Assembly (NCBI GenBank): GCA_027605045.1
Contig: JAQFWX010000038.1
Span: 62,001 to 126,000 of the forward strand
Length of the DNA stretch: 64,000 bases
Direction: 5' to 3'
DNA from: Phallus indusiatus
Lineage: Eukaryota > Basidiomycota > Agaricomycetes > Phallales > Phallaceae
Positions within the stretch are counted from its first letter, which is position 1. Every line of letters begins with the position of its first letter. A model generated the notes under the pieces. It worked only from the letters and a program-made list of their open reading frames with translations, was not told the DNA's origin and did not search any database. Of this stretch, positions 17,607 through 42,729 are shown in pieces. A program made the translations under genes and the position numbers.

Positions 17607-17630
17607 TTGCCGTTTGCAAATTTGTTTTCC
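17607..17630 (+). repeat. Left terminal inverted repeat of Tc1/mariner element
   Basis: 24 bp identical to the reverse complement of 41260-41283. It is preceded by the TA target duplication. Confidence 0.9.
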
Positions 17631-17895
17631 GACGGCAACGAGCGCTAATATTCACCCCAATGCAGCGCAAGCAAGAAAAAATTAATTATCTTGAAAACAG
17701 GTAGCTTAACCTATCTTCTTTTTTACACTAAAATTAGTAGTTTTATATGAAGAATTTTTTGAGACCTTAAAAGTCAAGTAGAAGTCTTTGGAAAAAGTAT
17801 GTATGTTCCAAAACCTGTCTTATTGCTTGATTGTAATTTATATAATGATTAAAATATTATCTCGAGCTCAAAATTCTCGTTTGAAGTGTAATATG

Positions 17896-18973: not shown

Positions 18974-19414
18974 CCACCCCCCCCTTCAACGAGGCGGCGT
19001 CCCGCCGCCTGTAGCTTCGACTAATGATGCTTGCAGCTTGGAGAAATCGAACCGAGGGCGACGATGGAAGAGGAGACCATTTATCGAGCGCGGCACACTC
19101 GGGTGCTCACGGTGGAACTGCCTAATGAGATCTGGGGCCGCAATATTCGACTCGGGTTCCCATTGATCATGCTCGGGACCATAGCCTTCCCAATGCACCT
19201 TATATTCGAGTCGTCTCCAGAATACACGACTGTCCAAAATCTGTTCCACGACGTAGTGCTCACCGTCATCTCTGACCTCCGGAGGTGGGGGAGCCTTGAC
19301 GCGACGACCCGGGATTGTATCTTCAACCTTTGGACGTAACTTCCCGACATGGAACACTGGATGAAGCCTTGACATCGACAGCGGTAAACGCAGCTTGTAT
19401 GTGTGCGACCCGAC

Positions 19415-20213
19415 TGTCAGGGCTACTCAGCTCACACTAGAGGGAGGGGATCCTAAGTAAATATATTGAGGGAGAAACTAACTACTCACCTAGAGGGAGG
19501 GGATCCTAAGAGAACAAGCTTAGGGACCCTCACTCTAGGTACAGCTACTATATACATAAAACGACGACGCGGCGTGCGGCCCTGACACAGCTAAGTGCCA
19601 GGCGCCCAAGCCGAGCCTAAGCTGTCAGGGTACGCTACCGCCGTCTCTCATTTTCTTATTTATTATCATCGGCATCGTTTCTTTTCTATTTTATTTATCC
19701 TTTCCATATTTTACTTTCACTCTCCGTTTCCTTGTTCTGTCTCTATTTCACTTTCTCTACTCGCGCGCGTCGTGCGCTCGTACCCGGCGTGATGTCCATG
19801 ACATCACGTCGCTTATGTTCGGCTTGGGCGCCTGGCACTTAGTTGTGTCAGGGCCGCACGCCGCGTCGTCGTTTTATGTATATAGTAGCTGTACCTAGAG
19901 TGAGGGTCCCTAAGCTTGTTCTCTTAGGATCCCCTCCCTCTAGGTGAGTAGTTAGTTTCCCTTCCAATATATTCTCTTAGGATCCCCTCCCTCTAGTGTG
20001 AGCTGAGTAGCCCTAACATAAGCGACGTGATGTCACGGGCATCACGCCGGGTATGAGCGCGCAACGCGCGCGAGTAAAGAATGTGAAATAGAGACGGAGG
20101 GAGCAAACGGAAGGTGGACTTAATGTACGGGAAATGTAAATGAAATGGAGATGAACATATACCGAGGATAATAAATAAGGAAAAAGGAGGGGACGCGGTA
20201 GCGTACCCTGACA
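19415..20213 (+). repeat. Solo Gypsy-1-family LTR inside Gypsy-1 pol, itself interrupted
   Basis: Flanked by the 5-bp duplication CCGAC (19410-19414 and 20214-20218). The ends are TGTCAGGGCTACTC and GTACCCTGACA. The LTR is split at 19622 by an inverted copy of the same family (19623-20018). Taking both out restores the pol frame. Confidence 0.88.
19623..20018 (-). repeat. Inverted Gypsy-1-family solo LTR nested in an LTR
   Basis: A 396-bp complete LTR in reverse orientation, flanked by the duplication TAAGC (19618-19622 and 20019-20023). It was therefore inserted after the surrounding LTR and is not an inversion product. Confidence 0.88.
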
Positions 20214-23200
20214 CCGACCTTGCTGACTATCGGAAAAGGCCCCAAGTACCGATGCGATAACTTGGCGGAGGGCCTGGTGGTACGAATGTCGCTCGAATCG
20301 AGGTATACCTTGTCACCAACCTTGTATTCAGGTGCCGGGATGTGTTTCCGATCGTAGTACTTGGCCATCTCGTCCTTCGACTTGGCTATGGCGGCCTTGG
20401 CTTCCTCTATCGTCGACTTCATACGCGTCTTGAACTCGTTGACAGATTCGATCTTCGAGTCAGCAACCAGCGGTTCAAATCCCATACGAGGATGTCGTCC
20501 AGTGTCGAGCTCGAATGGTGTCGCACGCGTAGCTGAATGCACGTGGTTGTTATATGCGAACTCAGCCAAGGGCAGTATCTGGTCCCAGTCGTCCTGTCGC
20601 TCAGAGGTGAAAAGTCGAAGGTACTGTTCGACTTCTGCGTTGACACGCTCTGTCTGACCATCGGTTTGAGGATGATATGCCGTAGAGGGTGCAAGCCGTA
20701 TGCCAAGGAGCCTAGAAAGCTCCTGTGTGAAGCGGGACGCGAACTGGGGGCCTCTGTCAGAGATCACCTTCATGGGGAGACCATGGAGCTTCCAGACATG
20801 TTGAAGGTACAGACGGGCTAGACCTGTCGCATCAAGTGTCGTAAATGTCGGCACGAAATGAACCCGTTTGGTGAGAGAGTCGATGACAGAGAGGATCGTG
20901 TCGAAACCGTTGGATTCTGGCAGCTCCACAATGAAGTCGACTGAGATGTGTTCCCAAGGTCGACTTGGCACTTCTGTGGGTCGGAGAAGGCCATAGGGAG
21001 CATGATGAGACGGTTTCGTACGTAGACACATGTCGCAGGCCTCGACATAGCGTTGGACGTACCTAGAGACACCTGGCCACCAGAAGGTGCGTGAAATGAG
21101 CTCGAGAGTCTTGAAACGACCCGGGTGACCACCGAGTTTGGTGTCGTGGTGCTTGGAAAGGATTTTCCGACGCAATTCGTCCACATTTGGCACGTAAACC
21201 TTGCCGCGATAATAGAGGAGGTCCTGGTCTTCAAACCATTCCGACGAGTGAGCTGAACGACCACCCAGTGCACGAAGTGTTGCAACGGCTTTGGAAACAC
21301 TATCTTCAACCTTGCCTTCCCGATTGGCCTTGCGAATCTGGCGTAGAAGGTCCTCCTCCTCCCCTTTAAGACGGAATGTTTGCAGAGCATTGATTGCAAA
21401 CATTTCGGGTCGGATTAAGGTGACTCCACGATTGTCGTCCTTTCCCGAGCCATGATCTGGGCGACGGGATAGGCCATCAGGTTTACCCATTGACTTACCC
21501 GGTATATGCTGTAGGGTGAAGTCGAATCGTGAGAGGTATACTGACCATCTAGCTTGACGACGATTGAGGTTACGCACGGACATGAAATACTCGAGATTCT
21601 TGTGATCAGTCCGTATGTCGATAGGGTGAGACGCACCTTCAAGAAAGTGTCGCCATTCTTCCAGGGATCGTATGATAGCGAGCATCTCCTTGTCGTGAAT
21701 CTCGTAGTTGTGTTCGACAGGACTAAGAGCCTTCGAGAAAAACGCAACTGGGTGCCATTTGCCGTCCTCGTTCGACAACTTTGACAGAACCGCGCCTGTT
21801 GCAAAGTCGGAACTGTCTGCTTCAACCCGGTAAGGATTAGCGGGGTTGGGAATGAGAAGAATGGGGGCAGAGGTGATTGACGACTTCAGAGTATCGAAAG
21901 CATGCTGACAAGTGTCGGACCAGACGAAGGGTGTATCTTTCTTGGTTAACCCGAACATGGGATTGGCAATACGCGCGAAATCCTTGATAAATCGACGATA
22001 GAAGTTGGCGAAGCCCAGGAAGGACTGAACCTCGGTGACATTCTTCGGGACAGGCCAATCTCTGACACCCGAGACTTTCGCGGGATCCATCTCTACGGTG
22101 TTCTCGGAAATGACGACACCTAGGTACTCGATTTTAGTCCGACAGAACTCGCACTTCTCTGCCTTGAGATATAGCTTGTGCTCGTGGAGACGTTCGAGAA
22201 CACGTCGTGTTACCTGGTCATGTTGTTCCCGATCCCGAGTATAGATGAGAATGTCGTCAATGTAGACGGCAACAACACCTTCCGAGATCATGTCTTCAAA
22301 GATCTCGTTCATCATCGTCTGGAAGGTCGCAGGACTATTTGTGAGACCAAAGAACATTACCAGGGGCTCGAAAAGACCGCGGTTGGTGCGGAAAGCAGCC
22401 TTCCACTCGTCTCCTTCCTTTATCCGCACGTTGTTGTAACCCCAGCGCACGTCCAGCTTGGTGAAGTATCGGGCACCTTGCAATTTGTTGATGAGCTCTG
22501 AGATCAAGGGCAGCGGGTAGCGGTTCTTAATCGTCATAGCATTCAATGCCCGATAGTCCTGGATGAGACGAAGGGAGCCATCTTTCTTCTTAATGAAGAA
22601 TACTGGGGAAGCCATGGGCGACTTGGAGGGTCGGATTCGTCCAGACGCAAGGTTCTCTTCTAGAAACGCGTCTAATTCGGCCTGTTCGTTGGGCGACAAC
22701 GGGTAGATCTTGCACGACTTGGGCTCAGAACCTGGCACAAGCTCTATCGGGTGATCCCACTTCTTCGACTGCGGCAGCGAGTCGAACGACTCCTTCGAGA
22801 AAATGTCGGCAAAGTCGTGGAACATCTCTGGGACAATATCTCGAAAACCCTTGGGGGCCGGTGCGTCCGAGTTGTTGGCATGGGCCTGGGCCAGTCACTG
22901 GGAGATGGTCTCGGTGGCATATATGCGGTGTGCGTCGGGCTCGTCAGGCAACATTGATATCGCGAATAGTCGATCACCTTCTTCAATCTCAGACTCGATG
23001 TCGACCAGGTCCGGTATGTCAGGATCGTGGGTCTCAGTGTCGTCCAGTTCAGGCAGAGGTGCACGTCGGATCTGCTGGAACGCGCGCCTAGAGAGTTTAC
23101 CCGCTGGCCAGCGTGGAGCGCAGGATCTACAACTAGGACTGCAGCGCATGAATTCCACTTGACCAGTCGTGTAATCTATGACGGGATTGTGGGCCTTGAA

Positions 23201-23889
23201 CCACGGCAGCCCAAACAAGACGGGATACTTGAGGGAGGTAACGGCGAACAGGGTGCGTTCAGAATGATCCCGAAAGCGAACGACCAGGTCGACGACGTGG
23301 GTAATAGAGCCAGCGTGATTGGGCGTACCGTCGACGTTAAACACAGGAATTGGTTTAGCAAGGCGTACGGAGGGAAGCCGATGTTTCTCGACAAAGTCGC
23401 AATTGAGGAACATACCGCTAGCCCCAGTGTCCAACATGGCCTTGCTGTGCAGCAGGACTCCGGTGTCAACACTTTGTAGTTCTACAGGGATCTCCAGCTT
23501 CTGCGTACCAGCGGTAGCTGCAAGTCGGTATTCCTTAGGCAACGCGCGACGTTGAGAAGGCGACAGCATACATGGAATGGAAACAGAGCGTGTAGCAGGT
23601 GGAGGCGATTCTTTGGGTTTGTCAGGGGATGCAGCAGGGGTAGTTATGTATCTCTACCCAATAGCGCTCAGGTGCTTTATCTACCAGTAGGAAGGGAGGT
23701 AGTCGATGACGAATGAGAAACAGGAGTAGAAAGGAAGATGGTGACAGTATGAAGCGAACGGAGAAACGGAAGATGTTCGGGAGAATACGGGAGGAAAGAT
23801 ACGGACCGGCATACCGGGTACCGTACGATGGATGTGGTAGCGCGTAGACTAACACATACGTCTATACTATACGCACAATATACTAGATT

Positions 23890-24208
23890 TGTAACGTTTC
23901 GTTACTTTTTATAGTGTACCGCTTGCGGTACACAGTTTATATCACGCTGTAGTTTCACGCCACAAGTAACAGACCAAAGTGCTGTATTTTCTTTGTGGAG
24001 TAAAACAAGTTGCGCGTGCTGAATCAGCACGCGCGTAGCTACTACTAATGTATAGTTATTACATAATGGCTCGCCGCGCCGCGGCAGCCAGAGGCGTTAA
24101 GCACCTCTGTTATTAGAGTAAGTAATAGTAACTACTGCAGAGGCGAAGCCCTCTGCATATGCCTAAGTGGCATATACTCAATCCACCGCATGCGGTGGAT
24201 CCGTTACA
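23890..24208 (-). repeat. Gypsy-2 3' LTR
   Basis: Begins TGTAACG, ends CGTTACA, and is 319 bp long. It consists largely of consecutive stem-loops, for example GTAACG/CGTTAC, TGTACCGC/GCGGTACA, GCGTGCTGA/TCAGCACGC, GCAGAGG/CCTCTGC, TATGCC/GGCATA and TCCACCGC/GCGGTGGA. Confidence 0.9.
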
Positions 24209-24218
24209 TCCTCCCCTT
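24209..24218 (-). other. Polypurine tract of Gypsy-2
   Basis: AAGGGGAGGA on the minus strand lies directly against the 3' LTR, where plus-strand DNA synthesis is primed in LTR retrotransposons. Gypsy-3 has a similar run at 37022-37033. Confidence 0.7.
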
Positions 24219-24270
24219 GTGACTTGGACTCCAAGTCATAGGATCGCGAAGAGGAAGCATCTGACTGTAA

Positions 24271-26025
24271 TCAGTCAGAGGGATTGCTGTAGTCAATCTC
24301 CATGCTCTCCGAGGCACTCGGATGCGGTGCGTCAAGGTCCTCAGGGGGCCTCAACAATTCCTCGTCCGTCATCTGAATTGGGACGGACGGGGAGTAAACC
24401 TTATTAGGCGGGCCTGCCACAATACTGGCAGGTGATGCCGACGCATGGACGGCGGGGGCGGCCGACTGAGTCGTACGCGCCTTTTTTGTTGGACGATCCA
24501 GTCCACGGCGCACGCGATAGTCATGCGCGATGCGATTAACATCTTCTCCATTGGCGTAACGTTGGAGAAGGGGCGCGATCACCTCAGTGACGCGTCTTGT
24601 CGTCACTCCATTGGCGTGCATGGAGCGAATCACCTCCTCTATGGTAATGGAGGAGGGGGATTTGCACTCGAAGGAACGAGTGTAGCCTTCCATGAGCGTG
24701 GAAGGCAGGTGGGTGGAGGAATTACCCCTACCACCGAGAACTTCTTCCCACACAGTAAGTGCGGGGTCGAGGAGGCACTCAGCCGCCTTCTCGAGGAACT
24801 TGGCACGCACTTCACGAGTACGTGTGACTCGTTTGAGCCATGCGAACACCTCAACATCTTGAGGGTTTAATGATCCATCCGACATTAGTCGGATGTAGGG
24901 AGGACCTGGTTAGGGTCCGCATTCCAAGTATTGATTAAATACTTGATCTCGGGGTGGATTAACTCTCCCGAGATAAACACCACCGATGGACGGTTGGCGG
25001 CAGCCTCCATAGCTTCAAGCTTGGCTGTTTTCCTCGCCAGGCGGCGCTCCTTCATGGATCTGCGCCAACGAGTCCATGCGTATGAAATACGCATGTGAAC
25101 CCCTCTGTCATCGGGGTACGTGAACACCGGGGGGTCGGTCCAAACCCGGGTTCCAATCTCGACGAACAATGGTTCGTCGAGGCTGCAGGTGTTATACCAT
25201 GCAGTAGGATTGGGGTGCCAGGCACCAGAGAATGATCCCCACTAACAGTGGGGTCGAAACCCTTGACGAAGAAGGGCCATGGGTCCCTATTGGAGTCCCA
25301 TCCTGGCTTGGTCCGTGGATACGGACCAGAGGGTTTCCTTGGAGAAACCGGGGCAGCATCGCGAGAGCCCGATGCCTTGGTTGCATCAGCGTAGGTACGC
25401 TGAGGCTTGTGTTTGGTGGACGACGCGATGGAGGCGTCGTCATCATAGTCATTATCATCGACTATGTCTTCCATGTCGTCGTCAGACGACATGTCGTTGA
25501 AGATATCAGGCAAAGGGGCTGCCTGGGATGGTTCAGGCGCTTTATCGGCCTGGTCTCTCGACCGCTTTTTGGAGGTCGATGGGGTAGTCGACGGGCCTGC
25601 CGTCGACGCTGAACATTCAAGTTCAGCAATGCGAGCTTTCAGCTCGCAGATATGACGATTCGCATCGTCGAGGTGGTCTGTCAAGGACTTGACGTCCTTT
25701 TCAGCTTCTTCTAGACGTTCGTCTAGATGATAGTACTCCCTCTTTATGAAGGGAAAGGCCTTGTAGACGGCCTGCTTGACCATATCATGGTCAAGGATGA
25801 TTGCCCCGCTGCCAGCGGGGCCTGCCAGGTGACTGGCAAAGTCGTTGCACGCAGTGCAACTATCATTGTTATGATAGACGGATATGCATCCGTCCATCGC
25901 GTCTAAGGTCCATTCGGACCTTTGCAGGGCCAGTTGAGCCTCTGCTTTTTGAACCTACTAACAGGTTGCGGCGTAGGCGACCGCGAGCGTGATCGTTCGC
26001 GTTGTTTTCCCTTGCTGTCAGGCAT
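24271..26025 (-). pseudogene. Gypsy-2 extra ORF (ORF3) after pol, frameshifted
   Basis: Begins at an ATG 131 nt after the pol stop (MPDSKGKQRERSRSRSP). It shifts frame in an A-run near 25945, then reads LALQRSEW and a Cys/His segment MDGCISVYHNNDSCTACNDF, then KAFPFIKREY and a coiled coil (ELKARIAELE). Next come an acidic Asp-rich linker near 25450 and a frame change near 25200. AWYNTCSLDEPLFVEIGTRVW follows. After another frame change near 24885 comes DGSLNPQDVEVFAWLKR. It aligns segment by segment with the 601-residue ORF3 of Gypsy-3, which shows that all frames once formed one protein. I recognise no known domain and see no envelope-like signal peptide or membrane anchor. Confidence 0.8.
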
Positions 26026-26156
26026 GGGGGTGTGAGGAGAAAAGACCGTGAACGGACTTTTGGGTTATATACTTGGGCGGCCTCATGGAGCGCCCAAGTG
26101 AAAATTACCTCACCGCGTAGCAGTGAAGTGCCAGTGGATCCCTGTGGGTGGGATCT

Positions 26157-29100
26157 TCAAGCAGATCCCCGAGTGGGATCTGGGCGCTTGTTGTTGGTCC
26201 GCGACTCTCCGTGATTGGATAGTCGTGGCAGCTGCCGAGGCTCGTTTACGCCTCGTAATTGCAAGTACTCGTCTAGAGCTTGCAAGTCCTTACAGTTACT
26301 GTAAGGTTCCCAAGTGGTATCCCCAAGGGTCCACTGGACTAGGAACTCGAGATCTTTCTCGCGAGTTCCACTCCAGCGATGAGCTAGGAGTTCCTCGACG
26401 TGCCATTCAGCATCGTCTGGCTGTCCAAAGTCATACGCCGTGAGTGTATCGCGGCGTGGAAATCTCTCATCGTCGTTGGCGATGTGAGGTTTAATCAAAT
26501 CCACGTGAAATACGGGATTTATGCGACGTTGCTTGAGCTCTTCAGAGAGCTCAAGTTTTACTGTGATATTGTCTTTAACGGACAATATTTTGTATGGTCC
26601 CACATAACGCGGGATCAACTTCTTAACTCTCCCCTTGGGGAGGTTGAGATTCCTCGTCGACAGATAGACGAGGTCACCCTCTTTGTACTCCGGTGCATCG
26701 CGCCGTGAGTTGTTCGCGTAGTGAGCCTGTTTAACGCGATTGGCTATGATAGCGTCATGCGCTATCATGAGGTTCCACTTTGCCTATTGAGCAAAGTGTT
26801 GAACACCTTTGAATTTGGTGTTCGTCTCAATTTTCCTTCCCAAACTGGGAAGGTAGCCGTAGTTGAGTTCAAACGGCGCGAAACCAGTGGTTTCGCTGGT
26901 GCTGCTATTAATAGCAAACTCCACCATTGGGATCCTTTCGGCCCAATCTTTTTGATCGTTCTGTATGACGGAACGAAGTATTTGACCAATTGAGCGATTG
27001 GCTCGCTCGGTAGATCCATCCGTTTGCGGATGGAACGCCGTGGACATGAGCAATCGTGTCCCCATTAGGCGTTGCAGTTCCTGCCAAAACTTGGCAGTGA
27101 ATCGTGCATCCCTGTCACTCACGATTGAGTCAGGGACACCGTGGAGTCTTACGACTTCACTGAGGTATAACCAGGCTGTGCCCTTGGCGGTCAGCTTGGT
27201 GGTGGTTGGCATCAGACGAACCATAGAGGTCAGTCTGTCAATCACGACGAATAGGAAGTCGTGGCCGTTTGAAACGGGTAATGGACCGACGAAGTCCATT
27301 CCAATCGATTCCCAAGGTTTATTGGGAATCGGGAGTTGTTTTAACAGACCACTGGGGTGATTATTCTCCCCTTTGTTGGTCTGGCACGTTCCACAGGATC
27401 TGCAGAACGTATCGATGTCTTCAATCATCGATTTCCACCAGTACGCTTGTCTAACGTACTGAGACGTTTTGTAACGTCCAAAGTGCCCAACAATTTGGTG
27501 GGCCTCACTGATTATAATCTCAGTGATCCTCCTCCCCTTGTAAAATGCGTTATGGGGGACGCATAATACATCGCGGAGGAACTGATTCTTGGTAAAGATC
27601 AGTTGATTTTTAATTCCAAACGCCTTGTGAGCGTTTGGGTTGGCAAGAACCAGCTTAAATACTGGGTCCTTGTGATAACCTTGCTGTATCAGCGAGGTAA
27701 ATTCAGCAAAGCCCTCAATTTTGGCTTTAAGAAGCTTGCTGTCTTGCTCTGCACTTAGAGCAAGTATATCCTCATCGGATTGCGCTTCTGTAATATCAGA
27801 AGGTGTAGTATTTGAGGGACCTTCAACTCGAGGTTCCTCTCGTACTCGTGAACGTGTAATAACGTTCACTCTCACTTCATCCCTTCTTTCGATGGGAAGA
27901 TGATCCCCTTCGGGATCAAGTCTAACGTCAGCGTTGACGTATACCTCCGGAGGGTGAACCTCATCCGGAGTGTCCTCTTCGTAATAACGAGAGAGGCCAT
28001 CGGCGACATTGTTAGTGACGCCCTTGACATGAATCGTCTCGTAATCAAAACGAGACAGGTATTCATACCACCGTGCTTGGCGCGGTGACATGCGAGGCTG
28101 GGTCTTGAAGTGGACCATGGCCTCGTTGTCCGTTACTAGGGTGAATCTACGCCCTAGTAGTTTGTCTTCCCACTTAAGGAAGGCTTCAAGTACCGCGATG
28201 AGCTCATGCTCATGGGTGCGGTAGTTGTACTGAGCAGGGGTGAACTTCTTCGAGAGAAACCCTGCTGGCCTACATGTTTGCCATGTAGGCCCTTGCCCAT
28301 AATAGGCACCGACGCCACATTTAGAGCCGTCGGTTACGACCCAAATTGGATCTGGGTCGTCCACGTTAATAGGCTTCAAGATAGGAGCCTTTCGCGTGAG
28401 TGCTTTGATTGAATCAAAGCACTTGTTCAACAACGGCGTCCATACGAACGGTCTGTTGTTGTACGTACACCCTGATAGTGGTGTAGTGTATGCGGCTACC
28501 CCTGGTAGGTATGCCGCAACGTATTGTACGAGGCCCAGAAATTTCTGGACATCGTTATACGTGCGTGGAGTTCTCCACTCACGTATTTTATCCATCTTCT
28601 CTTGATCGGGATGGATGCCATCATCGTCAATGATGTGGCCTAAGCACTCCAGTCGCTTAGAGTATAAGTCAACTTTACGACTACTCAGGTAAAGTTGTGC
28701 CTCTCGCAAACGCGAGAAGGCGTTCTCTAGATGCTGCTGATGCAGATCTATTGTGTTTGAATAGACGAACACGTCGTCTATGTATGCATCCGTCGAACGA
28801 CCGATGCAGTCCCTAAAGATATGGGTCATCAGACGTTGAAACGTCGATGGGGCATTGCAGTCTCCTTGCTGCATGACATGGCTCTTGAAAGTGCCATAGA
28901 TGGTGGCAAAGGTCGTCTTGTGGACGTCCTCTGGGACTATGCGTACCTGCTCGTACGCCTCAGTCAGATCAATCTTTGATCTGTATTTGTGTCTCGCCAC
29001 GTTCTGGCGGATGGTTTCCTGGTCAGGGAAGGGCGTTACGTCCTTCTCTGTGTTTTCGTTCTGCAGGCGCAGATCGAACACGGTCCGTAGTGCTAAGACC

Positions 29101-30238
29101 ACGGCTCGTTTCTGCAGGCAAAGCATAGGGATTGCCTGTGTAGCTACAGTTGGTTCCCACCAACCTGCAGCTACGTATCGCTGAATCTTTTCAGCGAGTA
29201 GCGCTTGAGCGCATCCGGGCACCTGGGAAGGTGGTACCGGATCTTCTTATTGGGTTCAATAAGAGGAATCTGATGATTCACTTCCCGAAACGGGGGAAGT
29301 CGGGAAGGGACAGGACCGAAAAGGTCACTGTACTTGTTCTTCCAGTACTCGATGAGTGCTGGGATATTCTCTTCCGTCATCTCAGGGACGGAGGAGCTGG
29401 AATGTTGGGTGCTGGCTAGCACCATCGCTCCTGTTTCAGGAGCGTGTCCAATCACATGGTGATTGGTGTCAATCACCTCGCCGTCGCGGGTGATTGTACC
29501 TCTGCTGAAATCCAGGCAGATGTTGTAGCGTCTCAGGAATGGGACGCCAATGATCACATCATAGTGATCGATGTTGACGATGTCAAAGTACTCTTGGACA
29601 TCGATACCTCCGAATTGGATTCGGGTGTACGTTCCATACTGGATGGAAGACTTGCTGCCCTTAACGGCCAGCTGCAGCACGACAGGTTTGTCGAGCTTGA
29701 AGGTTCTTGCCCCGGTGGCAAGAGAGAAATGAGGGGACATGATCATCCCCTGGCATCCACTGTCGACTAGGCAGTGAGCCAATTGGCCATTAACTGGCCA
29801 GAAACCCTCAATGGGTCTCGATGCGTTTCTGTCTCGTGTTGGGGCATGAGAGCTCACTCTAGCCATATGGTCATAGAGTGGTTCCTTGCTCGTAGCGAGC
29901 GAGGACTCATTGTCATCCAATGGCGATGACTTGTGGACCGCGAAGTGCAGTCTGCGCTCCTCATACTCGTCACCAATTGTGAGGAGCATGTATACACTGG
30001 GACCATTGTCATCATCGTCCCATTGGTATTGGATGCCCTCGTCGTCCTCGACGGGGTCGTTGGTGGGCTCGTCTTGGGCCACCTCTTCCTCCACAGCTTG
30101 TTCAACTGTGGGGTCTTCCACGTTCTCCTGCGGGGCATCGTTCGATGTCTCGCCAGAGGTCTCTTCAACCTCTTCGATACGACCCACATTGGCTCGTACC
30201 TGTCTCAGTCTGGGGCACGCATTTCTGTAATGTCCCAC
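26157..30238 (-). pseudogene. Gypsy-2 pol polyprotein
   Basis: From the N-terminus: the zinc knuckle CFNCGQVGHYRNAC just upstream, an acidic linker, a retropepsin-like protease with AHCLVDSGCQGM and IIGVPFLRRYNI, reverse transcriptase (KIDLTEAYEQVRIV and YIDDVFVYS), RNase H (WVVTDGSKCGVGAYYG), integrase zinc finger (HFGRYKTSQYVRQAYWW, CRSCGTC), integrase core (MDFVGPLP, SDRDARFTAKFW, TDGSTERAN) and a chromodomain (WHVEELLAHRW, EFLVQWTLGDTTWEP). There is a 1-nt shift near 29210 between protease and reverse transcriptase. A single in-frame TAG at 26784-26786 lies between integrase and chromodomain. The protease has DSG in place of the usual DTG. Confidence 0.88.
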
Positions 30239-32834
30239 CTGCCCACAGTTGAAACACGTGGGAGGGGTAGTGCTAGTGCGATTGTTCGTACTAGTTGGGG
30301 CAGTCCTAGCGAGCTGCGAGTTATGATTTCTCGAGCTTGATGAGCTCGAGGGCGATTCCCCAATGGGGAATTGCCATTAGTTCGCGTCTCATGGGGACGC
30401 GCAGAGGGACCGTGGTTCCTCTGGTTCAAGCGCATATTGTTTGAATGCGCTTGTCTGGCCAAGTTGGTGTGGCTGCTGCTGCTGCCACTACCACTACTGC
30501 CACTACTACCCGTTGGACGGGTAGTGCTTCCTTGGGAGGCCGTTATCGACCTCCGCTTCTTGAACGCCTCCTCTACTTGGATGGCGAGTGCAAGTAGTTC
30601 CTTAGCAGACATCTGCTCAGGACTACCGCCTCTGAATGCTACTTCAGCGGCGAGGCTGTGGTTCAGCCCATCAAGGAACCTCCTCCTGAATGTATAATCA
30701 TCAGGAGGGTGCGCTAGTCTGTTGGCTAGCGTGAGTAACGCACTCATGTATTCGTGTACAGAGTGCGATCCTTGCCGTTCGCGTTCGAACTGGATCGCCA
30801 CCTCACTTCTCGAGTGGGGTGGGAGGAATCGTTCGTGTAGTCTCCGTAAAGCGGGGACTAGGGTCCACTCATGCATGGGACGAGTACCTCGTTCCACGTT
30901 CTGGGTGAACCACTCTTGTGCCAACCCTTCTAGGCGCATGCCTAGAAAGGAGAGTTGCTCTGCTTGGCTGACTTCTCCAAGCAGGTGGTTTACGCGTAGC
31001 CAGCGTAACAGACCCGACACAAAGTTGTCGAAGTCCTCGGCTCTGGACGAGCCGCTATATGTGGGCGGGAGCCCTATCTTCGCTCCTGCTTTCGCAAGGG
31101 GCGAGTTGCCTGGCATCATATCCCTGTTTGCAATCAGGGCTTCTTGAACCATGGCTATGACGCCCTCAAGTACTGGGGCGTCGTCGTTGAAAGGGTCAAA
31201 TCTTTCAACACGTTCCTCATTGAACGGTGTGGCGCGGAGATCCTCGCCATACTGTGGTCGACGAGCGTATCCATCATATGGATCGATATGTGGTGCTTCT
31301 GCTGGGTTAGCAGATGCTTGCCTCTGCCCATTGGGCTCGGCACTTTGCCTTGGCAGTTGTCTGCCAGGGGGTGATGCTCTGTCGTCTGGACGACTTGAGC
31401 TTGTGGCTGGGTCTGGCGATGGGATCCTATCGCCAGTGATGGCATTATAGCCACCTTCAAGCACACGAGCATGGCGGACCGCGTTCATACGCGCGTCCCT
31501 CGCGATGCGGATCCTATTTTGGATTAAGGCTGTCCACGGGTATTGCAAACAGGTACCTGCGCGAGTGTTTAGCCAATCAGAACACAGGATTTTGCCCTTG
31601 ACCCTTAAATCCTGCATTCTGATTGGCTAAACGCTCGCGCAGGTACCTGTTTGCAATACCCGTGGACAGCCTTATTTTGGATGATCCGCATTTGCTGCTC
31701 GTTGGGAGTGTCAGTCTCGAGAGAGCCTGCTACAGCTTCCTCGAGCGCATTAGTGGCCGTCTCCACAGCCCGTGCATGCGTACGGATTGCTCTGTCGGAG
31801 AGTAGCCTTGCTATCCTCTGGTATTCGAGGGCAGCTTGGGCGACCACTTCAGCATCCTCTCGTGGGGGTGTTCCATTTCGCGACTGGTTCACCAGTCGCG
31901 TGGCTATCTCGGTATCGATATAGTCACCAACCGCGTCAGACTCGTGAGGCGGTTGTCTTGTGAAACGGTGCATTCGTCTCACTGTTTCTCTGCCAGCCTC
32001 TATTTCGGGGCCGGGGTTTCTAGGAGCTGTATATGCCGTAGCTCCTTGAGTAGGAGGTCTATCAGGACGCGTACTCGGTCCTGGGGTAACGTTCTGAGAA
32101 CGTTGTCTGGTGCCTGTTGGTGCAGGCTCAGGGGATTGGGAATTACCAGCTGTCGCTGGTGACGGACTGGCATATGTCGGTCCCGTCGGTGTAACAAACC
32201 TAGCTTGTGGGGCTGGGTTTGTGAATTGATATGCAAGGCGACTCGTCGGCCCTGCTGGTCTAGGACGAGTAGATCCAGTACCTGATGCAGGCGGATCTAC
32301 CGCTCTGCTTTTTCCTTTGTCAGAGCGTGCTCGTGCAGGCTCTGCTTCAGGAGACAAGTCTGTTGTCCTGACTTGGTCCCTGTCAGTGCCTGTAGTAACA
32401 GGCTCTGGCTCAGGGTTTTCAACTCCTGCGTTGACATTCTCGATTAATCGAGCTAGTCTCTGCAGTTCTGACGGGGACATATTCCCGTTCCTCACGCCAT
32501 CGAGTAACGATGCGTGAACAGCGTTCATTGTCTCGTCCCTTCGGATGGACCTGTCGCTCCTGACGCTAAGTCTGGAGCGACCAGATGCTACGGACTTTAC
32601 GTCCTCATCTTCTTCATCAGCGAGTTGGGGCTGATGTTCCATCGTCTGCGACGCAGGACGAGTGGGATTTTGGGTTGATGCATCCACTCTCTCCCATGTG
32701 GATGACTCTCCTTCGAGGGTTCCTTCCCTAGACGGGTCGGGATTTTCGGTTTGCACTGGCCCGGGTGGGTCAGGCTGATTGGAATCAGGTGTACCACGAT
32801 CTGGTGCACTCTGACTCCTGGTAGTAGGAGCCAT
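30205..32834 (-). pseudogene. Gypsy-2 gag, interrupted by a 149-bp foldback element
   Basis: The ATG at 32834 opens a Pro/Ser/Thr-rich N-terminal region (~400 residues). The capsid-like part follows at about 31510-30205, with LPPTYSGSSRAEDFDNFVSGLLRWLR, QAEQLSFLGMRLEGLAQEWF and VALQFERERQGS-type helices typical of Ty3/Gypsy gag. The frame is broken at 31525-31673 by a small transposon; without it the reading is MRIIQN/RIRIARDARMN. The zinc knuckle lies one frame away, so a frameshift, natural or mutational, sits near 30350. Confidence 0.82.
31525..31673. mobile_element. 149-bp foldback MITE in Gypsy-2 gag
   Basis: Two arms of about 68 bp (starting AAGGCTGTCCACGGG) are nearly perfect inverted copies around a short centre. 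The flank ATTTTGGAT is duplicated (31516-31524 and 31674-31682). A 9-bp duplication is typical of Mutator-like elements, so this is probably a non-autonomous member of that group. Confidence 0.8.
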
Positions 32835-32919
32835 TGAATCCTCCTGTAATAGGAAGGGTTAATTTCGCTTGCTTAATACAGCGGCGGGTTGTTTTTAACG
32901 CCTTTGGTGTTAAAAAAGA

Positions 32920-33240
32920 TGTAACGTTTCGTTACTTTTTATAGTGTACCGCTTGCGGTACACAGTTTATATCACGCTGTAGTTTCACGCCACAAGTAAC
33001 AGACCAAAGTGCTGTATTTTCTTTGTGGAGTAAAACAAGTTGCGCGTGCTGAATCAGCACGCGTGTAGCTACTACTAATGTATAGTTATTACATAATGGC
33101 TCGCCGCGCCGCGGCGAGCCAGAGGCGTTAAGTGCCTCTGTTATTAGAGTAAGTAATAGTAACTACTGCAGAGGGCGAAGCCCTCTGCATATGCCTAAGT
33201 GGCATATACTCAATCCACCGCATGCGGTGGATCCGTTACA
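32920..33240 (-). repeat. Gypsy-2 5' LTR
   Basis: 321 bp, almost identical to 23890-24208. It differs by eye in a longer GCGGCGAGCC stem and a few single bases. It is followed on the minus strand by TCTTTTTTAACACC, where the primer-binding site should be; I cannot match that to a tRNA. Confidence 0.88.
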
Positions 33241-33276
33241 AGATTAGCCCTTATGATCCTAGCACGTACCCTGACA

Positions 33277-34196
33277 GCCGCACACGATGCCATAATTGCG
33301 AGTCGCGTGAAACAAACCATGCACGCGAACACCCACAGACGAGATGCGCCTGTTTACAAAGAGGGTGACCTCGTGTATCTGTTAGGGCGACTCAGGGCAC
33401 ACACCTAGAGGAGGGAAAACCTAAGATCTATTGGGGGACAACGACTAACTACTCACCTAGAGGAGGGAAAACCTAAGAGAACAAGCTTAGGTATCCCCCT
33501 CTAGGGAAATCGCATATAAGTACAGGATATGAGGCGCCCGACTGATCCCCATGGGATCCGAGGAGATACAGACAGAAATCGAAAGAAATCGAAAAGATCG
33601 AGAGATCGAGAAAACGATGAAAATAGTGGAAATGACAAATACGGGAAATGATGGGAATCGAAGTGCGAAATGAAATCGAAAGAAATCGAAGAAATCGAAT
33701 AATAGGGCAAGGCGCTAGCGTACCGTAACAGTATCTTTCTATGAAGAACATATCTCTACCAAAGGGTAGATCCAGTAAGTTGGTACCGCGTTACGTCGGC
33801 CCTTACAAAGTATTGTCAGTCAAAGACAATATTAACGTCAAACTCGACTTGCCTGACGAGTTGAAGAAGCGTAGGATAAGTCCAGTATTCCACGTGGACT
33901 TAGTGAAACCACATATCGCCAATGATGACGATAGATTTCCACGTCGTGAGTCATTAACGGCGTACGACTTTGGACAACCGGACAATGCCGAATGGCATGT
34001 AGATGAACTATTAGCCCATCGCTGGACTGGGTCTAAAGACACGGACATTGAGTTCCTAGTGCAATGGACGCTAGGCGATACGACCTGGGAGCCGTATGAA
34101 CACTGCAAAGACTTGCAGGCATTGGATGAGTATCTCCAATTACGCGGGGTTACCCAATTAGGGAAATTGCCGCGTCTCCGCACGACGCGTAAATGA
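33277..34196 (+). pseudogene. Gypsy-3 integrase C-terminus and chromodomain, split by an LTR
   Basis: Reads AAHDAIIASRVKQTMHAN, then the GPY/F-type module (KEGDLVYL / SMKNISLPKGRSSK / LVPRYVGPYKVL), then a chromodomain (WHVDELLAHRW, EFLVQWTLGDTTWEPYEH), ending at a TGA. The frame is broken at codon VYL/S by a 351-bp solo LTR (33380-33730). Removing it and one GTATC restores the frame. The missing 5' part makes it a fragment. Confidence 0.88.
33380..33730. repeat. Solo LTR, family B, copy 1
   Basis: TGTTAGGGCGACTC...CCGTAACA, 351 bp, flanked by GTATC (33375-33379 and 33731-33735). The same family occurs at 39226-39577. Its left part has two copies of CCTAGAGGAGGGAAAACCTA, a plan shared with the Gypsy-1 LTR. 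Confidence 0.9.
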
Positions 34197-34335
34197 GGAT
34201 CTGCAAGCAGATCTGCCCCGTGCCCCCGGTGGCACTGCAGCCACGAGAAAATCCTACTCGGGCGCTACTCTGATACAAGAGTAAATAAATACTCTCCCTT
34301 ACAACCCCGTCTCAGCCACCTGAGCACCGTCAACG

Positions 34336-36980
34336 ATGTCTGCAGAACCTTCACGACCTACCTCTTCATCTACGAAGCCCTTGACCCGCAAGGGACGATT
34401 TGACGATATCAAGCAAGCGTTGCTTGAAGCACAAAAAGAATGGAGTATGGATTCCATGCCTGGCTGCGTAGCCATCACCCACGAAAGTGGGAAATGTACC
34501 CACTGCGATGAGTATATCTCGCACATTAGTACCGCTGCAAGCAAGCGTACCATTGTTCTTGACGAGAAAGACATCAAAGAGTGCCTACTCGAGGCATTCC
34601 CGTTCCTGCAAAAAGAGTGGGATGATTTACGAAAGCACCTCGAAGACGCTAACGACTACGCCGACCAGACCGTCCAAGAACTCAAGGACGTTGAGAGACG
34701 AGAGGACGACCTTCGAGATCGTATACGGGAACTCGAGGACAAGTTGAAGCAAGCCCCACAGGCAGCATCGCCTGTGTCATCTAGGAAACGACCTCGGTCA
34801 GAGGCCAAGGGCCCCACGAATCATGGGCCCGTAGGATTCGACGCGTACGACAACAACGACGATGATCTAGACGACCACGATTGGGCGGACTCCTACAATG
34901 ACGAGTCGGTACTCGACTCCAACGGTCAACCCGTTCCTCCCCACTCTGGGGACGATTTCGGCCTGATGGACAGGCTGGACCCTGAAGAGGAGTCATTATT
35001 GTCTAGGCGACAACTCGCTGAGAAAGTCCTTGCTGAGTTCCCAGGAACTCCCCGTATCTCCAACCAGGCCAAGTACCACGATACGTGGCCCACTTTCATG
35101 CACGGCCACAACCCCACAGCTTCTCGAGCAGGGAAAACCCCTGTACCTGGGCCAGTTCCCGACCCACTCGCGTGGTACATGATGTGTCCACTGGATGATC
35201 CCTCATTCGTACTCCAGGGGAAGCAGATCTGGAAGAAACCACCCATATTGGACACACCTCAAAAAGTTGCAATGCACGCGCGCATTAGACTTGCCTGGGA
35301 TGTAGGCATGATGTTCATCAATAGAAAGAAGAAAGAGCGAGACTACGCTCGCCTCACTATCGGGGAGCGCCCTGAAGCTTTTCCATACCCAACAGAAGGG
35401 CAAATGGACCTGGAAACGGGTCGCCTCTATGAGACGTGGTATAAGGACCCCGCCTCCGTACCCTTTTATATAAGGGTTGAACCATCGGGATCGCTGAATA
35501 TCAGCGATGTTGAAGTCGTAGCGTGGCTTCGAAAAATATTCCCGAATCGGGAAACAAGGAAGACTGTATTCCCCCTTGTAGCAGAGATATGTACCGAGCC
35601 TGGACTATCCACCTGGCTCAACGCCACTGGCATCAACGTCGACAAGACGGTGAATAACTCCCCATCCATAATCGAAGGATGGCGTCGAGCATATACCCTG
35701 CCTCAGGGTAACATTCCCACCAAGGAAGAAGTTGTCGGGATGCTGCGATATAACTGTGTAAATACCCGATTAATCGAAACTCGATTAGGACCACTATTTG
35801 AGCGGTGGCGATCACACACTAACAGCAACACCATCGCCGTGAAGTGGCGAGAATCTCAACCCACCATTTCGTCGCTGTTACCAGGGCGTCACACTGGAGA
35901 CATTGTAGGGTTTAGCCAAAAAAAGGATCCTAAGAAAATTATGGTTTGAGGCATAGGCTATTGACAATTTACCAAATTGCAAAATTATATTATAACTAAT
36001 ACTCAGGTCAAGGGATTCTGGCTTGCAAAATTGTCAGTATACTGCTATAATTATCTTAACTAAATTATGTAATAATTCTTTATCATATAAGCCTATGATT
36101 AATGTTATCCATTTGGTAAAATAATGAATAAAATGAAACTTACATTATCATCATTCATATTGAAGAATGTTCTAAAAATCTTTTTTATATTTATTGTGAA
36201 AATATATTTCTATTATAATTTAGATGCACGGATAAACCTTAATTTTAAGCATGAGATTACATTGTATAATATCAGAGTTTTCCTGGGAAAACCTTAATAA
36301 TACAGGGATTCCTGGAAAATCTTGAGAAAACTCTAATGTCACATATTGTGACCTTAAGTTTTAATTACACAGAAACTCAATATTTTTCACTCCCTCAAAA
36401 TTATGATGAAAAATTGTACTGATAAGTAATTATATTAACTTCATTATATAATTTTCTGCTATGGTTAATAATAATATATGTTTTATTTTGTATACTGTTT
36501 GATTGAAAAGAAAAAGTTATTGATAGTGTTATATAAGTAAAAATTCTTACATAATTTAACTAAGATAAAAATAGCAACATACTGACAATTTTTCAAGTCA
36601 GAATCCCTTGATCTGAGTATTAGTTATAATATGATATTACAAGTTAGTGAATTGTCATATGCCTATACCTCGAACTATAATTTTTTTAGGATCCTTTTTT
36701 TGGTCAAACCCTACAATGTCTCCAGTGTCAGTATCGAAGACGACGTCGCCACAATCGTCGTGACACCGCCCCTGCAGCTCCCATTGCTGGATCTTCGAAG
36801 GAGACTCCCTATGTGGAGTCCACCGCCAATTCGCCTCCCTCGGCGAAAGCACTGCTCCCAGCAGATATCGCTGAGAAAGAACTCGTGATCGACCCCGATC
36901 AATACGAGGTCCTGGATAGACCAGGAGCAGGCCCTCAAGGTGATATTGAGATGGCCATGGATTATACCGCGGACGACTGA
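34336..36980 (+). pseudogene. Gypsy-3 extra ORF (ORF3), 601 codons, split by an 836-bp element
   Basis: The parts 34336-35891 and 36731-36980 join in frame to 601 residues. N-terminal part: ALLEAQKEWSMDSMPGC, then a Cys/His cluster (GCVAITHESGKCTHCDEY), FPFLQKEWDDLRKHLED and a coiled coil to about residue 140. Then a basic KKRPR-like patch (SSRKRPRSEAKG), an acidic linker, a Trp/Tyr-rich segment (LAWYMMCPLDDPSF) and a helical C-terminal region (NISDVEVVAWLRKIF, SPSIIEGWRRAY). The tail ends MAMDYTADD. It lies 139 nt after the pol stop, as in Gypsy-2. It has no membrane segment, so it is not envelope-like. No family was recognised. The frame itself has no stop apart from the insertion. Confidence 0.82.
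35892..36727. mobile_element. 836-bp MITE with CACTG ends in Gypsy-3 ORF3
   Basis: The ends read CACTGGAGACATTGTAGGG in inverted orientation and the similarity continues for about 148 bp on each side. The 3-bp flank TCA is duplicated (35889-35891 and 36728-36730). CACT ends and a 3-bp duplication point to the CACTA superfamily. The centre is very AT-rich and non-coding, unlike the host element. Confidence 0.8.
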
Positions 36981-37021
36981 GACTCACTCGTCGTATCATG
37001 TATTGACTTGACGCTCAAGTC

Positions 37022-37033
37022 AGCGGGGGAGGA
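37022..37033 (+). other. Polypurine tract of Gypsy-3
   Basis: AGCGGGGGAGGA directly precedes the LTR that begins TGTAACGG. Confidence 0.65.
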
Positions 37034-37297
37034 TGTAACGGTTCCGCTATGAGCAGCGGACTACTATTAACCATAGTACATATTCGTATATACATACAAT
37101 TGTATGCAGACGATCGTCACCTGCACAAGTACCTAGTATTATGTAATGTACATAGGCGCCGTCACACCAGTAAATACCGCGTAACGGTAAAGGCGCCAGA
37201 AGCCTTTCTTACCTACACTTGCAAATATACAGCTTTATACTGTTTGTTGTGAGTCCGTAAGAACCGGGCTAATCGTAAACTGTAACGAAACGTTACA
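37034..37297 (+). repeat. Gypsy-3 3' LTR
   Basis: 264 bp from TGTAACGG to CGTTACA. It shares ends and stem-loop style with the Gypsy-2 LTR (TCCGCT/AGCGGA, TACCG/CGGTA, TGTAACG/CGTTACA) but little primary sequence inside. Confidence 0.82.
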
Positions 37298-37592
37298 CTT
37301 AGGGACCCTCACTCTAGGGATAGCGACTATATACATGAAAAACGATAACGCGGCGTGCGGCCCTGACACAGCTAAGTGCTAGGCGCCCGAACCGAGCCTA
37401 AGCGACGTGATGTCACGGGCATCACACCGGGTACAAGCGTGCGACGCGCGCGAGTAGAGAAAGTGAGATAGAGACGGAACAAGGAAACGGAAAGTGAAAG
37501 TAATGGACGGGAAATGTAAATGGAATAGAAATAAATATATACCGATGATAATAAATAAGGAAAATGAGGGGACGCGGTAGCGTACCCTGACA
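37298..37592 (-). repeat. Gypsy-1 5' LTR remnant
   Basis: Matches the Gypsy-1 LTR from CTTAGGGACCC to CCCTGACA. About 110 bp of its other end are missing, having been cut off by Gypsy-3. It is followed by ATATG (37593-37597), the mate of the duplication at 17891-17895. Confidence 0.88.
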
Positions 37593-37702
37593 ATATGCTT
37601 AAACAAATTTTCGAAATAAAAATTGTACTATGTTTATGGTACAGTTCTGGTGAAATCTTTTGAACTCCACAGTGAAACAACCTCGAGAGCTACATCCTTC
37701 TC

Positions 37703-39644
37703 ATGCCAGCGGCACGTCAATCTAAAACCAAAAAAGTGTCAGATAAGACCCCAGCAATAGAAAACATACCATTGCCTCCAAAACGTAAAGTCGGAAGACC
37801 ACGAAAAAACCCCATGCCTGTCATAACGAGTGAAAACACAATGCCGGATTCTGCTTCTGTTCCTCCTGTAGGTCCTTCAGGAGATGATTTGGCGGCAATA
37901 ATAGGAAACCCTGATTATGACCAATGTATGATTGAGCTTGACAACGAACGATATGTGGCTGGGTTGGACATACCTCTTGGACCAGCTGAGGATGACAACA
38001 TATTTGCTGTGCCAGCCAGTAGAAATGTCACCTCTGATGGACCTAAAAGGAATAATGGAGGAAAGGATCAGGAGGGTGATGTACAGATGATAGAGGAAGA
38101 GGGAGAGGATGAAGATTTTACTGCTGAGATAGAGGAAACTGCGGCTGATATCAGTATGTCGTTTTCATATATCTAGATGAAGAAAACTTACAAACAAATC
38201 CTAGCTACTAAAGGAGCAATATCATTTTTAGTTCCATTGCCGAATGGAACAAGTGATGGGTTAGACATTCCATCAAATCTGACATGGCAGGATGTCAGGT
38301 TCCGTTTGGCAGAAAAAATGGAAGTACCTGTCAATTCTCTGAATATTGGCTACAAATTCTCGACCCATACAGTCCGTGACCCCCAGAGATGTCTTGGATC
38401 AGTTGCAAATTGGCTGGATTTGGTTGCAAAAGCACATTTGGCAATGAAGGTTCATGCCAAGGCTAAGAATAAAGGAAAGCCATTCGAGATACACATCAAG
38501 GATATGAATCTACCTCCGGATGCAAAGGCAGCAAAGGCAACGAGCGAGAAACTGCGACTAGGAGGATCCGGAGGTACGAAAGGTGGTGGTGGTAGTGGTG
38601 TAGAGCCATCTTTTGCGGCGAACTCCGGGCAGGAGGTCTTCTCGGAAGGCCGATTAGTCAAGCTTCTCGAACTCAAAACAAAATGTGGTAAACATGACCG
38701 GAATTGCATTGTAACCTCTAAAGGTGAACATATCCGCCTTTTAAAAGAGCACATTAGCCTCTGGGCTATGTTAGTGGTGTGTTACTCTCCTTTTGCCCTA
38801 TATGCAAACCTGATTAGTCAACAGTCATGCGGAATGGGTGATAAGGACTTGATAAAACCACCTGACTTGGTTATCACTCAGGCAAAGACTTCTTCCGAAG
38901 CACGGGATCATATTGCACCTCCACGTGGTATTGTTCGAGGCCCAAAAAATAGCGCAGAATCTGATGACCTCCTTGAACAGGGAGAGGAGACTGATGCGAA
39001 TGGCATTGAAGATCCGCAACAATTTCCATTCCTCTCTTCTTGGCTAAAGGAACTTGAATGAAAGTCCTGGTGCAGATGATAGGTGCTACTACCAGTATCT
39101 CCCATTCATTGAGAAAGAGGGATACCGGCGAGTTTCTGAGCTTGCAGATCTGATTACAGACTCAGAACTCCGTGCCATTTGCCCAGGAATGCCAATGGCA
39201 ACTGCGAAAAGCCTTATCCGGTTTGTGTTAGGGCGACTCAGGGCACACACCTAGAGGAGGCAAAACCTAAGATCTATTGCGGGGCAGCAACTAACTACTC
39301 ACCTAGAGGAGGGAAAACCTAAGAGAACAAGCTTAGGTATCCCCCTCTAGGGAAAACGCATATAAATACAGAGTACGAGGCGCCCGACTGATCCCCATGG
39401 GATCCGAGGAGATAGAAACAGAAATCGGAGTAAATCGAAGAAATCGAGAAATCGAAGAAACGACAAAAGTAGTGGAAATGGTAAGATACGGAAAGTGAAG
39501 GAAATCGAAGTGCGAAATGAAACCGAAAGAAATCGAAAAGATCGAATAATCGAGCGAGGTGCTAGCGTACCGTGACAGTTTGCCCAAATTGACACAAAAA
39601 GGATTCGTCAATCATCAAAACAACTTTATAATGGAGCATACTAG
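37703..39644 (+). pseudogene. Passenger gene of the Tc1/mariner element, broken
   Basis: An open reading frame starts at 37703 (MPAARQSKTKKV) with an AT-hook-like KRKVGRPRKNP near residue 32 and an acidic stretch (EEEGEDEDF). An in-frame TAG stands at 38174-38176 and the frame continues at once (MKKTYKQILATKGAISFLVP, IPSNLTWQDVRFRLAEKM). A Cys/His-containing part (LKTKCGKHDRNCIVTSKGEHIRLL) is followed by a frameshift near 39053. The C-terminal segment (ADLITDSELRAICPGMPMATAKSLIRF) resembles SAM-like helical bundles. It is split by the solo LTR at 39226-39577 and ends at a TAG at 39642. It converges with the transposase gene. Function unknown; a DNA-binding helper role would be a guess. Confidence 0.7.
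39226..39577. repeat. Solo LTR, family B, copy 2
   Basis: 352 bp, TGTTAGGGCGACTC...CCGTGACA, flanked by GTTTG (39221-39225 and 39578-39582). Removing it restores the passenger frame LIRF/AQIDTK. Confidence 0.9.
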
Positions 39645-41259: not shown

Positions 41260-41283
41260 GGAAAACAAATTTGCAAACGGCAA
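41260..41283 (-). repeat. Right terminal inverted repeat of Tc1/mariner element
   Basis: Perfect inverted copy of 17607-17630, followed by TA at 41284-41285. Confidence 0.9.
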
Positions 41284-41285
41284 TA

Positions 41286-42063: not shown

Positions 42064-42729
<666 letters not shown>

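Follow-up and report, generated by a model that had tools for sequence, protein, structure and literature searches.

In small RNA viruses, dispersed packaging signals take the form of stem-loops scattered in the coding sequence, with a loop motif that is read by the coat protein. A more extensive kind of folding, the genome-scale ordered structure (GORS) of positive-strand RNA viruses, is described in the consulted parts of one study (PMC7642675) by a folding energy that is raised along the whole genome, by very many short stem-loops across coding regions, by pairings that are poorly kept between relatives, and by less change at paired sites. The energy difference from shuffled sequences quoted there is about 15% for SARS-CoV-2 and 7.5-10.7% for hepatitis C virus, and the highest value quoted for a vertebrate RNA virus is 23.4%. 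Among long terminal repeat (LTR) retrotransposons, selective 2'-hydroxyl acylation analyzed by primer extension (SHAPE) delineated 14 well-folded regions in vivo and 12 ex vivo in the genomic RNA of yeast Ty3 (PMC11381356). Here we describe the Ty3/gypsy retrotransposon Gypsy-2 from a 64,000-nt stretch of Phallus indusiatus DNA (contig JAQFWX010000038.1, positions 62,001 to 126,000; hereafter the window), and we compare it with the neighboring elements Gypsy-1 and Gypsy-3. The family of Gypsy-2 is named F1, and a second family, which includes Gypsy-3, is named F2. We conclude that both families probably carry genome-scale ordered structure that is kept by selection.

The hairpin excess reported for Gypsy-2 in a preliminary description of this DNA is real. 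With perfect stems and loops of 3-12 nt as the standard count, the F1 copy in the window contains 163 stems of at least 6 bp (17.4 per kb) versus about 18.7 in dinucleotide shuffles, and 64 stems of at least 8 bp (6.8 per kb) versus about 1.3. The corresponding densities in the flanking DNA (1-18985 and 37298-64000) are 2.5-3.2 and 0.1-0.2 per kb. The individual hairpins quoted in that description were all recovered at or near their coordinates, and its estimate of one hairpin every 30-40 bases agrees with the median spacing of 39 nt for stems of at least 6 bp. When overlaps are excluded, 173 such stems follow one another along the element, mostly local and with the coding regions included. 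Among 8-mers at spacers of 3-16 nt (overlapping windows counted), 97 were inverted, 5 direct, 1 mirror, and 8 complementary in the same orientation. The same-orientation complements of 6, 7, and 8 nt (68, 27, and 8) outnumber the mirror repeats of these lengths (22, 5, and 1).

The excess is independent of composition, and it survives shuffles that keep the encoded proteins. In all seven tested open reading frames (ORFs) of F1, the number of stems of at least 6 bp was above the maximum of 100 synonymous shuffles, from which the expected counts per ORF in Table 1 were taken; codon choice has thus been bent to form the stems, as had been proposed. The control suggested in the preliminary description, a shuffle that keeps both the protein and the dinucleotide content, was run 200 times and moved 6-19% of the bases in the five F1 ORFs given. 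Under this shuffle the reverse transcriptase (RT)-integrase ORF retained its excess, with 15 stems of at least 8 bp versus 1.6 expected (shuffle maximum of 6) and 52 stems of at least 6 bp versus 13.8, and the chromodomain ORF, in which only 6% of the bases moved, had 6 stems of at least 8 bp versus 3.6 expected, a count equal to the shuffle maximum of 6. Stems of at least 8 bp are densest in the two LTRs, the ORFs having at most 10.6 per kb (the minimum of 2.5 per kb is found in the ORF upstream of gag); therefore translation cannot be the sole reason for their presence. No known RNA family was detected at the gathering threshold within positions 23000-38000.

The stems have a limited length, and the limit differs between the two families. 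The numbers of F1 stems of exactly 5 to 11 bp were 123, 60, 39, 46, 10, 6, and 2, whereas 52.9, 14.2, 3.2, 1.0, 0.2, 0.05, and 0.05 were expected. This corresponds to an excess of approximately 35-70 stems for each length up to 8 bp, which then breaks off, and beyond 8 bp the numbers drop roughly as chance extension predicts. For F2 we used the copy L039, here and in the mismatch and energy calculations below. With loops of 3-16 nt, it has 125, 78, 24, 5, and 1 stems of 5 to 9 bp versus 66.2, 15.9, 3.5, 0.7, and 0.2 expected, and the excess breaks off after 6 bp. The loops are limited as well: among F1 stems of at least 8 bp, the loop measures 3-16 nt in 69 and 17-40 nt in only three, the excess ending at about 16 nt, while in F2 it lies at loops of 3-9 nt. 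In F1 we saw neither a loop motif, beyond A-rich loops, nor a regular spacing of stems. Among the F1 stems of exactly 8 bp, G occupies the fifth position of the 5' arm in just 1 of 51, a figure that is uncorrected for the many positions looked at.

The two neighbors of Gypsy-2 differ in the trait. Gypsy-3 shows it in a weaker form, as had been claimed, with 11.9 stems of at least 6 bp per kb, or 48 stems versus about 7.5 expected. Over 145 residues, its chromodomain ORF shares 78% identity with the F1 counterpart. Large parts of Gypsy-3 match many places in the genome at 94-99%, and several of these places adjoin pol matches with 75-77% identity to the pol of F1. In the RT-integrase region, F1 and F2 agree at 43% of third codon positions. 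Gypsy-1, described earlier as lacking the trait, is near chance for stems of at least 6 bp (15 versus about 9.9), but it is not flat, since it has four stems of at least 8 bp versus about 0.25. Ten other Gypsy-like stretches, picked from among the 150 matches listed, are all remote from F1 (24-34% identical). Six of them are near chance; in the other four (L045, L047, L053, and L054), stems of at least 6 bp are about twice as frequent as expected by chance. A weak form of the trait may be spread more widely in the genome. Of 7999 scored candidates, 599 reached the threshold as homologues of the pol protein; 120 of these were listed, as protein sequences only, and the proteins found include relatives with 53-62% pol identity. 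No relative represented by DNA was confirmed in viral contigs or prokaryote genome contigs.

The folding energy gives the same order of families. The energy difference was calculated by the measure used for RNA viruses, in 350-nt sliding windows with a step of 140 nt and eight dinucleotide shuffles per sliding window. The mean for F1 was 42.5% (65 sliding windows, range 19.5-93.5%, every one of them at or above 19.5%), followed by 15.5% for the F2 copy (62 sliding windows, -1.6 to 29.7%), 10.8% for the Gypsy-3 locus, and 4.7% for Gypsy-1, where single values ranged from -9.4 to 51.2% with one sliding window reaching the top. Two flanking stretches had 0.3% and 1.4%, and six of the ten other Gypsy-like stretches had 1.6-12.3%. 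Mean z-scores in 150-nt sliding windows were -4.24 for F1, -1.91 for an F2 locus, and -0.59 for Gypsy-1. The pairs predicted in F1 are local (within 48 nt) in 87% of cases versus 60% in shuffles.

F1 shares with the viruses described in the consulted parts of PMC7642675 the folding energy raised along its whole length, the very many short stem-loops across coding regions, the poor keeping of individual pairings between relatives, and the lower rate of change at paired sites. It differs from them in being an LTR retrotransposon that is integrated, with a target-site duplication, in a fungal-type genome, in having structured LTRs, in perfect Watson-Crick stems with a family-specific break in length, in a folding strand that may be the sense RNA or its complement, and in an energy difference above the 23.4% quoted as the maximum, a comparison that is approximate because our shuffling program is not the one used in that study. 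In positive-strand RNA viruses, GORS is also linked to persistence in the host. Ty3 provides a precedent for folded regions in the genomic RNA of an LTR retrotransposon, but a whole-element excess of short hairpins is not mentioned in the consulted parts of its description (PMC11381356). The viral packaging signals introduced above resemble F1 in their many short coding stem-loops; they differ by their loop motif, as F1 loops have none beyond A-richness. The preliminary description knew of no family with this trait. We likewise found no published retrotransposon with such structure in the literature searched, from which subscription papers were mostly absent and which does not by itself prove novelty, but the pattern as such matches the GORS of positive-strand RNA viruses in the consulted parts of PMC7642675.

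Variation among copies points to selection on the stems. The 26 F1 copies (L001-L026) mapped on the window copy yielded 717 variants in 5428 columns with at least ten copies, after 28 alleles above 40% had been dropped because their direction was unclear. Expected numbers of stem breaks were obtained by random placement of the same changes and refer to stems of at least 6 bp unless stated otherwise. Private variants broke stems about as often as expected (86 of 415 versus 91.4), variants in two or three copies did so less often (24 of 152 versus 33.5), and variants in at least four copies least of all (13 of 150 versus 30.8, standard deviation (sd) 6.0). The same gradient was found at synonymous sites, with 43 of 206 private variants (44.5 expected), 16 of 98 variants in two or three copies (20.2 expected), and 8 of 99 variants in at least four copies (21.2 expected, sd 4.7); the non-synonymous variants in at least four copies broke stems in 5 of 45 cases (9.5 expected). 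In F2, where 14 distinct copies gave 303 variants and the random placement controlled for base and position modulo 3 but not for synonymous class, only 2 of 112 shared variants broke stems versus 15.1 expected (sd 3.6). The depletion of stem-breakers among shared, but not among private, F1 variants suggests that such changes have been removed from the lineages that kept copying.

Individual stems are replaced over time. In the RT-integrase region, full pairing in the other family was found for only 4 of 49 F1 stems and 8 of 33 F2 stems. Pairs of stems of at least 6 bp that changed on both sides between the families were nevertheless still complementary in 16 of 26 cases versus 39% under the null model (p = 0.026), and in the reverse direction in 13 of 21 cases versus 38% (p = 0.039), the two sets overlapping. 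As stem positions turn over, pairing itself, and not particular stems, seems to be kept, and the changes both among F1 copies and between F1 and F2 look like turnover under a constant pairing demand. At positions 26566-26588, four F1 copies (L003, L011, L016, and L018) form an 8-bp stem one base over, with a loop of 5 nt, and L023 has a variant of it; eight copies have replaced A-T by G-C, and three of these eight (L012, L015, and L021) have no stem of at least 6 bp there. In one stretch, four F1 copies contain stems that are shifted, extended, compensated, or new within about 200 nt, and this stretch probably comes from a diverged subfamily. An approximately 190-bp segment (positions 97-283 in the sense orientation) in L011, L012, L019, L021, and L001 is far from the window copy while its surroundings are not, likely as a result of recombination with a diverged subfamily.

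How the hairpins arose and what maintains them can be explained in several ways. Chance, base composition, low complexity, or simple repeats were rejected as a cause and have a virtually negligible probability: the observed counts lie far outside the range of three kinds of shuffles, the excess ends at a loop-length cut-off, direct and mirror repeats are not comparably frequent, and the controls come from the same window. Alternatively, the RT itself might write palindromes, if the nascent minus strand folds back, copies a few of its own bases, and returns to the template. The arms would then be complementary for mechanical reasons and the F1 and F2 enzymes would need different duplex lengths (8 and 6 bp), in agreement with the family-specific break, with a stem G+C content equal to chance, with the similar effect on ORFs and LTRs, and with internal mismatches that are G-T-like in the minus strand. 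The sequences of the copies fit this mechanism less well. Where a stem is perfect in another copy but not in the window copy, the two versions mostly differ by a single base, in either arm. Six F1 pairs were changed on both sides, and one-sided intermediates exist for three of them, the other three having none, as writing would predict. The depletion of shared stem-breakers at synonymous sites would require selection or frequent repair, and its absence among private F1 variants favors selection over writing. We therefore regard writing by the RT as quite unlikely, and template switching that produces quasi-palindromes, one of the causes offered in the preliminary description, is unsupported as the sole cause.

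A different possibility is selection on the stem-loops as scattered sites that one of the element's own proteins, either Gag or the product of an extra ORF, would bind for packaging or for protection of the complementary DNA (cDNA). Such sites would explain a set stem length without a G+C preference, and F1 and F2 have in common an extra ORF downstream of pol; no homologues were found for this ORF of F2, nor for the F1 ORF upstream of gag. Given loops without a motif beyond A-richness, a spacing that is not fixed, and an extra ORF whose nucleic-acid binding is just putative (weak coiled-coil Pfam matches and a poor fold prediction), we consider binding sites a credible but unlikely explanation. 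Palindromes could also act in double-stranded DNA, as cruciforms, as targets of dimeric DNA-binding proteins, or as chromatin signals, since inverted repeats exist on both strands and, among polymorphisms, neither G-U nor A-C is clearly better tolerated. The ratio of palindromes of exactly 8 bp to those of at least 9 bp is 4:13 at loops below 3 nt and 26:10 at loops of 3-7 nt (Fisher p = 0.0012). Longer stems at the shortest loops are expected if a single strand must bend but not if double-stranded palindromes are read, and an action in double-stranded DNA is thus very improbable.

The strand that folds can be approached through imperfect stems. A-C mismatches in the sense orientation correspond to G-T in the minus strand, and they outnumber G-U mismatches in both families (51:20 in F1 versus 12.2:10.0 in shuffles; 31:11 in the F2 copy versus 12.5:7.1), whereas among new mutations the ratio of A-C to G-U lies between about 1.05:1 and 1.6:1 in the different sets. 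The strand acted on could therefore be an antisense RNA or the minus-strand cDNA. On the other side, polymorphic A-C changes are lost about as often as G-U changes, a bias of A-C over G-U is absent from the F1-F2 comparison, and the energy difference of F1 is larger in the sense (42.5%) than in the antisense orientation (34.1%).

Several results weigh against selected genome-scale structure, or against particular forms of it. The combined A-C to G-U ratio of 82:31 (p = 0.004-0.012) does not favor folding of the sense RNA. Stems are no richer in G+C than chance inverted repeats (55.6% versus 55.0% for 8-bp stems of F1); stability driven by G+C was therefore rejected, and this argues against plain thermodynamic selection and for a reader of duplex length or for the writing hypothesis. 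Selection for structure does not account for the difference in the break point between F1 and F2 (8 versus 6 bp). Depletion of breaks is weak when F1 stems of at least 8 bp are taken alone (12 versus 16.6 for variants in at least four copies), the non-coding F1 variants number just 28 in all, and private F2 variants are somewhat depleted too (18 of 191 versus 26.8, sd 3.8). Covariation between the families falls to 10 of 17 at stems of at least 7 bp (p = 0.071). The six doubly changed F1 pairs do not exceed slid controls (0-7), and no such pairs were seen among F2 copies. We dropped these compensatory pairs as proof, both for this reason and because a pair hit by two transitions is necessarily complementary again.

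On balance, the structure of F1 and F2 is very probably under selection, as seen at synonymous sites. Selection would keep a single-stranded form of the element, be it the genomic RNA, its minus-strand cDNA, or an antisense RNA, folded in the cell into consecutive short hairpins. Its use may be shielding, as antisense RNA, small RNAs, other copies, and nucleases would have little access to a self-paired strand. We propose this use tentatively, as a reasonable possibility, and a tie of the selection to packaging or silencing is possible. In a more speculative version, which we think rather improbable, the hairpins would form a quantised structural code in a class of retrotransposons. Perfect hairpins would be required all along the element, each lineage having its set length (8 bp in F1 and 6 bp in F2), and their reader would count base pairs, not energy, and act on the minus-strand cDNA or the antisense strand.

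Gypsy-2 fits the chromodomain clade of Ty3/gypsy by its LTRs, gag, protease, RT-RNase H-integrase order, and chromodomain. It is flanked by a 5-bp target-site duplication (AGATT), its ends are TGTAAC...GTTACA, and its LTRs are 98.4% identical. Pfam matches include gag, aspartyl protease, RT (RVT_1), RNase H, SH3_Tf2-1, the chromodomain, and the integrase zinc-binding domain, which is above its cut-off, while the integrase core match is below its own. The frame of the window copy is broken into several ORFs; around the pol match, other copies keep a frame open for as many as 2020 codons. The extra ORF downstream of pol consists of 281 and 204 amino acids in the window copy and of 537 amino acids in Gypsy-3. 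No Pfam match was obtained for the 409- and 204-amino-acid ORFs, and none above the cut-off for the 281-amino-acid ORF; searches with the 409-amino-acid ORF and with the 537-amino-acid ORF as queries returned no homologues. The common part of the extra ORF has a Cys/His cluster near its start. The fold prediction of the extra ORF (only three sequences) has a mean predicted local distance difference test score of 39.8, being confident only in a long helix at about residues 89-139. The extra ORF might be linked to the hairpin trait.

Table 1. Positions of the elements, their parts, and two variable stems in the window (aa, amino acids; counts are observed versus expected)
Feature	Position	Strand	Evidence or measure
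Gypsy-1, control element without the trait	18986..23619	minus	stem counts, energy difference
Gypsy-2 (F1), Ty3/gypsy LTR retrotransposon, chromodomain type	23890..33240	minus	LTR pair, target-site duplication, Pfam, hairpin counts
F1 3' LTR, 319 bp	23890..24208	minus	stems of at least 6 bp, 7 observed; at least 8 bp, 4 observed (12.5/kb)
F1 204-aa extra ORF, downstream of pol	24271..24885	minus	stems of at least 6 bp, 12 vs 2.7
F1 281-aa extra ORF, downstream of pol	25052..25897	minus	stems of at least 6 bp, 25 vs 4.7
F1 SH3/chromodomain ORF	26157..26768	minus	stems of at least 6 bp, 12 vs 1.3; at least 8 bp, 6 vs 0.2
Stem differing between subfamilies	26566..26588	minus	8 bp, loop 7 in window copy
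F1 RT-RNase H-integrase ORF	26784..29222	minus	stems of at least 6 bp, 52 vs 8.4; at least 8 bp, 15 vs 0.4
F1 protease ORF	29171..30238	minus	stems of at least 6 bp, 24 vs 4.6
F1 gag ORF	30205..31617	minus	stems of at least 6 bp, 22 vs 3.8
Compensated stem	30505..30525	minus	T-A in 14 copies, C-G in 4, no intermediate seen
F1 409-aa ORF, upstream of gag	31605..32834	minus	stems of at least 6 bp, 18 vs 3.0
F1 5' LTR, 321 bp	32920..33240	minus	stems of at least 6 bp, 8 observed; at least 8 bp, 5 observed (15.6/kb)
Gypsy-3, F2 remnant with inserts	33277..37297	plus	48 stems of at least 6 bp

Gypsy-3 contains two interruptions. An 838-bp segment (35891-36728) aligns with its own reverse complement at 70% and breaks the alignments with the other listed F2 places; it is probably a separate insertion of the fold-back type. 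A gap of about 350 bp (33381-33730) also separates the alignments with those places, which end at query positions 104-106 and start again at 455, and a part of this segment resembles 19477-19529 at 87%. The whole nest of elements is flanked on both sides by sequences that are 98-100% alike (18000-18973 and 37298-37592), a pattern that nested insertion into an older repeat would produce. Elsewhere in the window, a tandem-repeat tract within 40001-50000 accounts for 448 exact direct 8-mer pairs at spacers of 3-16 nt, and an indoleamine 2,3-dioxygenase gene (Pfam IDO, E = 3e-107) occupies 2346-3542, with an ankyrin-repeat ORF adjoining at 4389-5225.

If the proposed structure is correct, genome-scale ordered structure would extend from RNA viruses to LTR retrotransposons, at a level above the highest value quoted in the consulted parts of PMC7642675. 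A single genome holds an extreme (F1), an intermediate (F2), and an unstructured (Gypsy-1) family, which makes the use of the structure testable within one host, and the contrast between these three families could be set against silencing, reverse transcription, and packaging.

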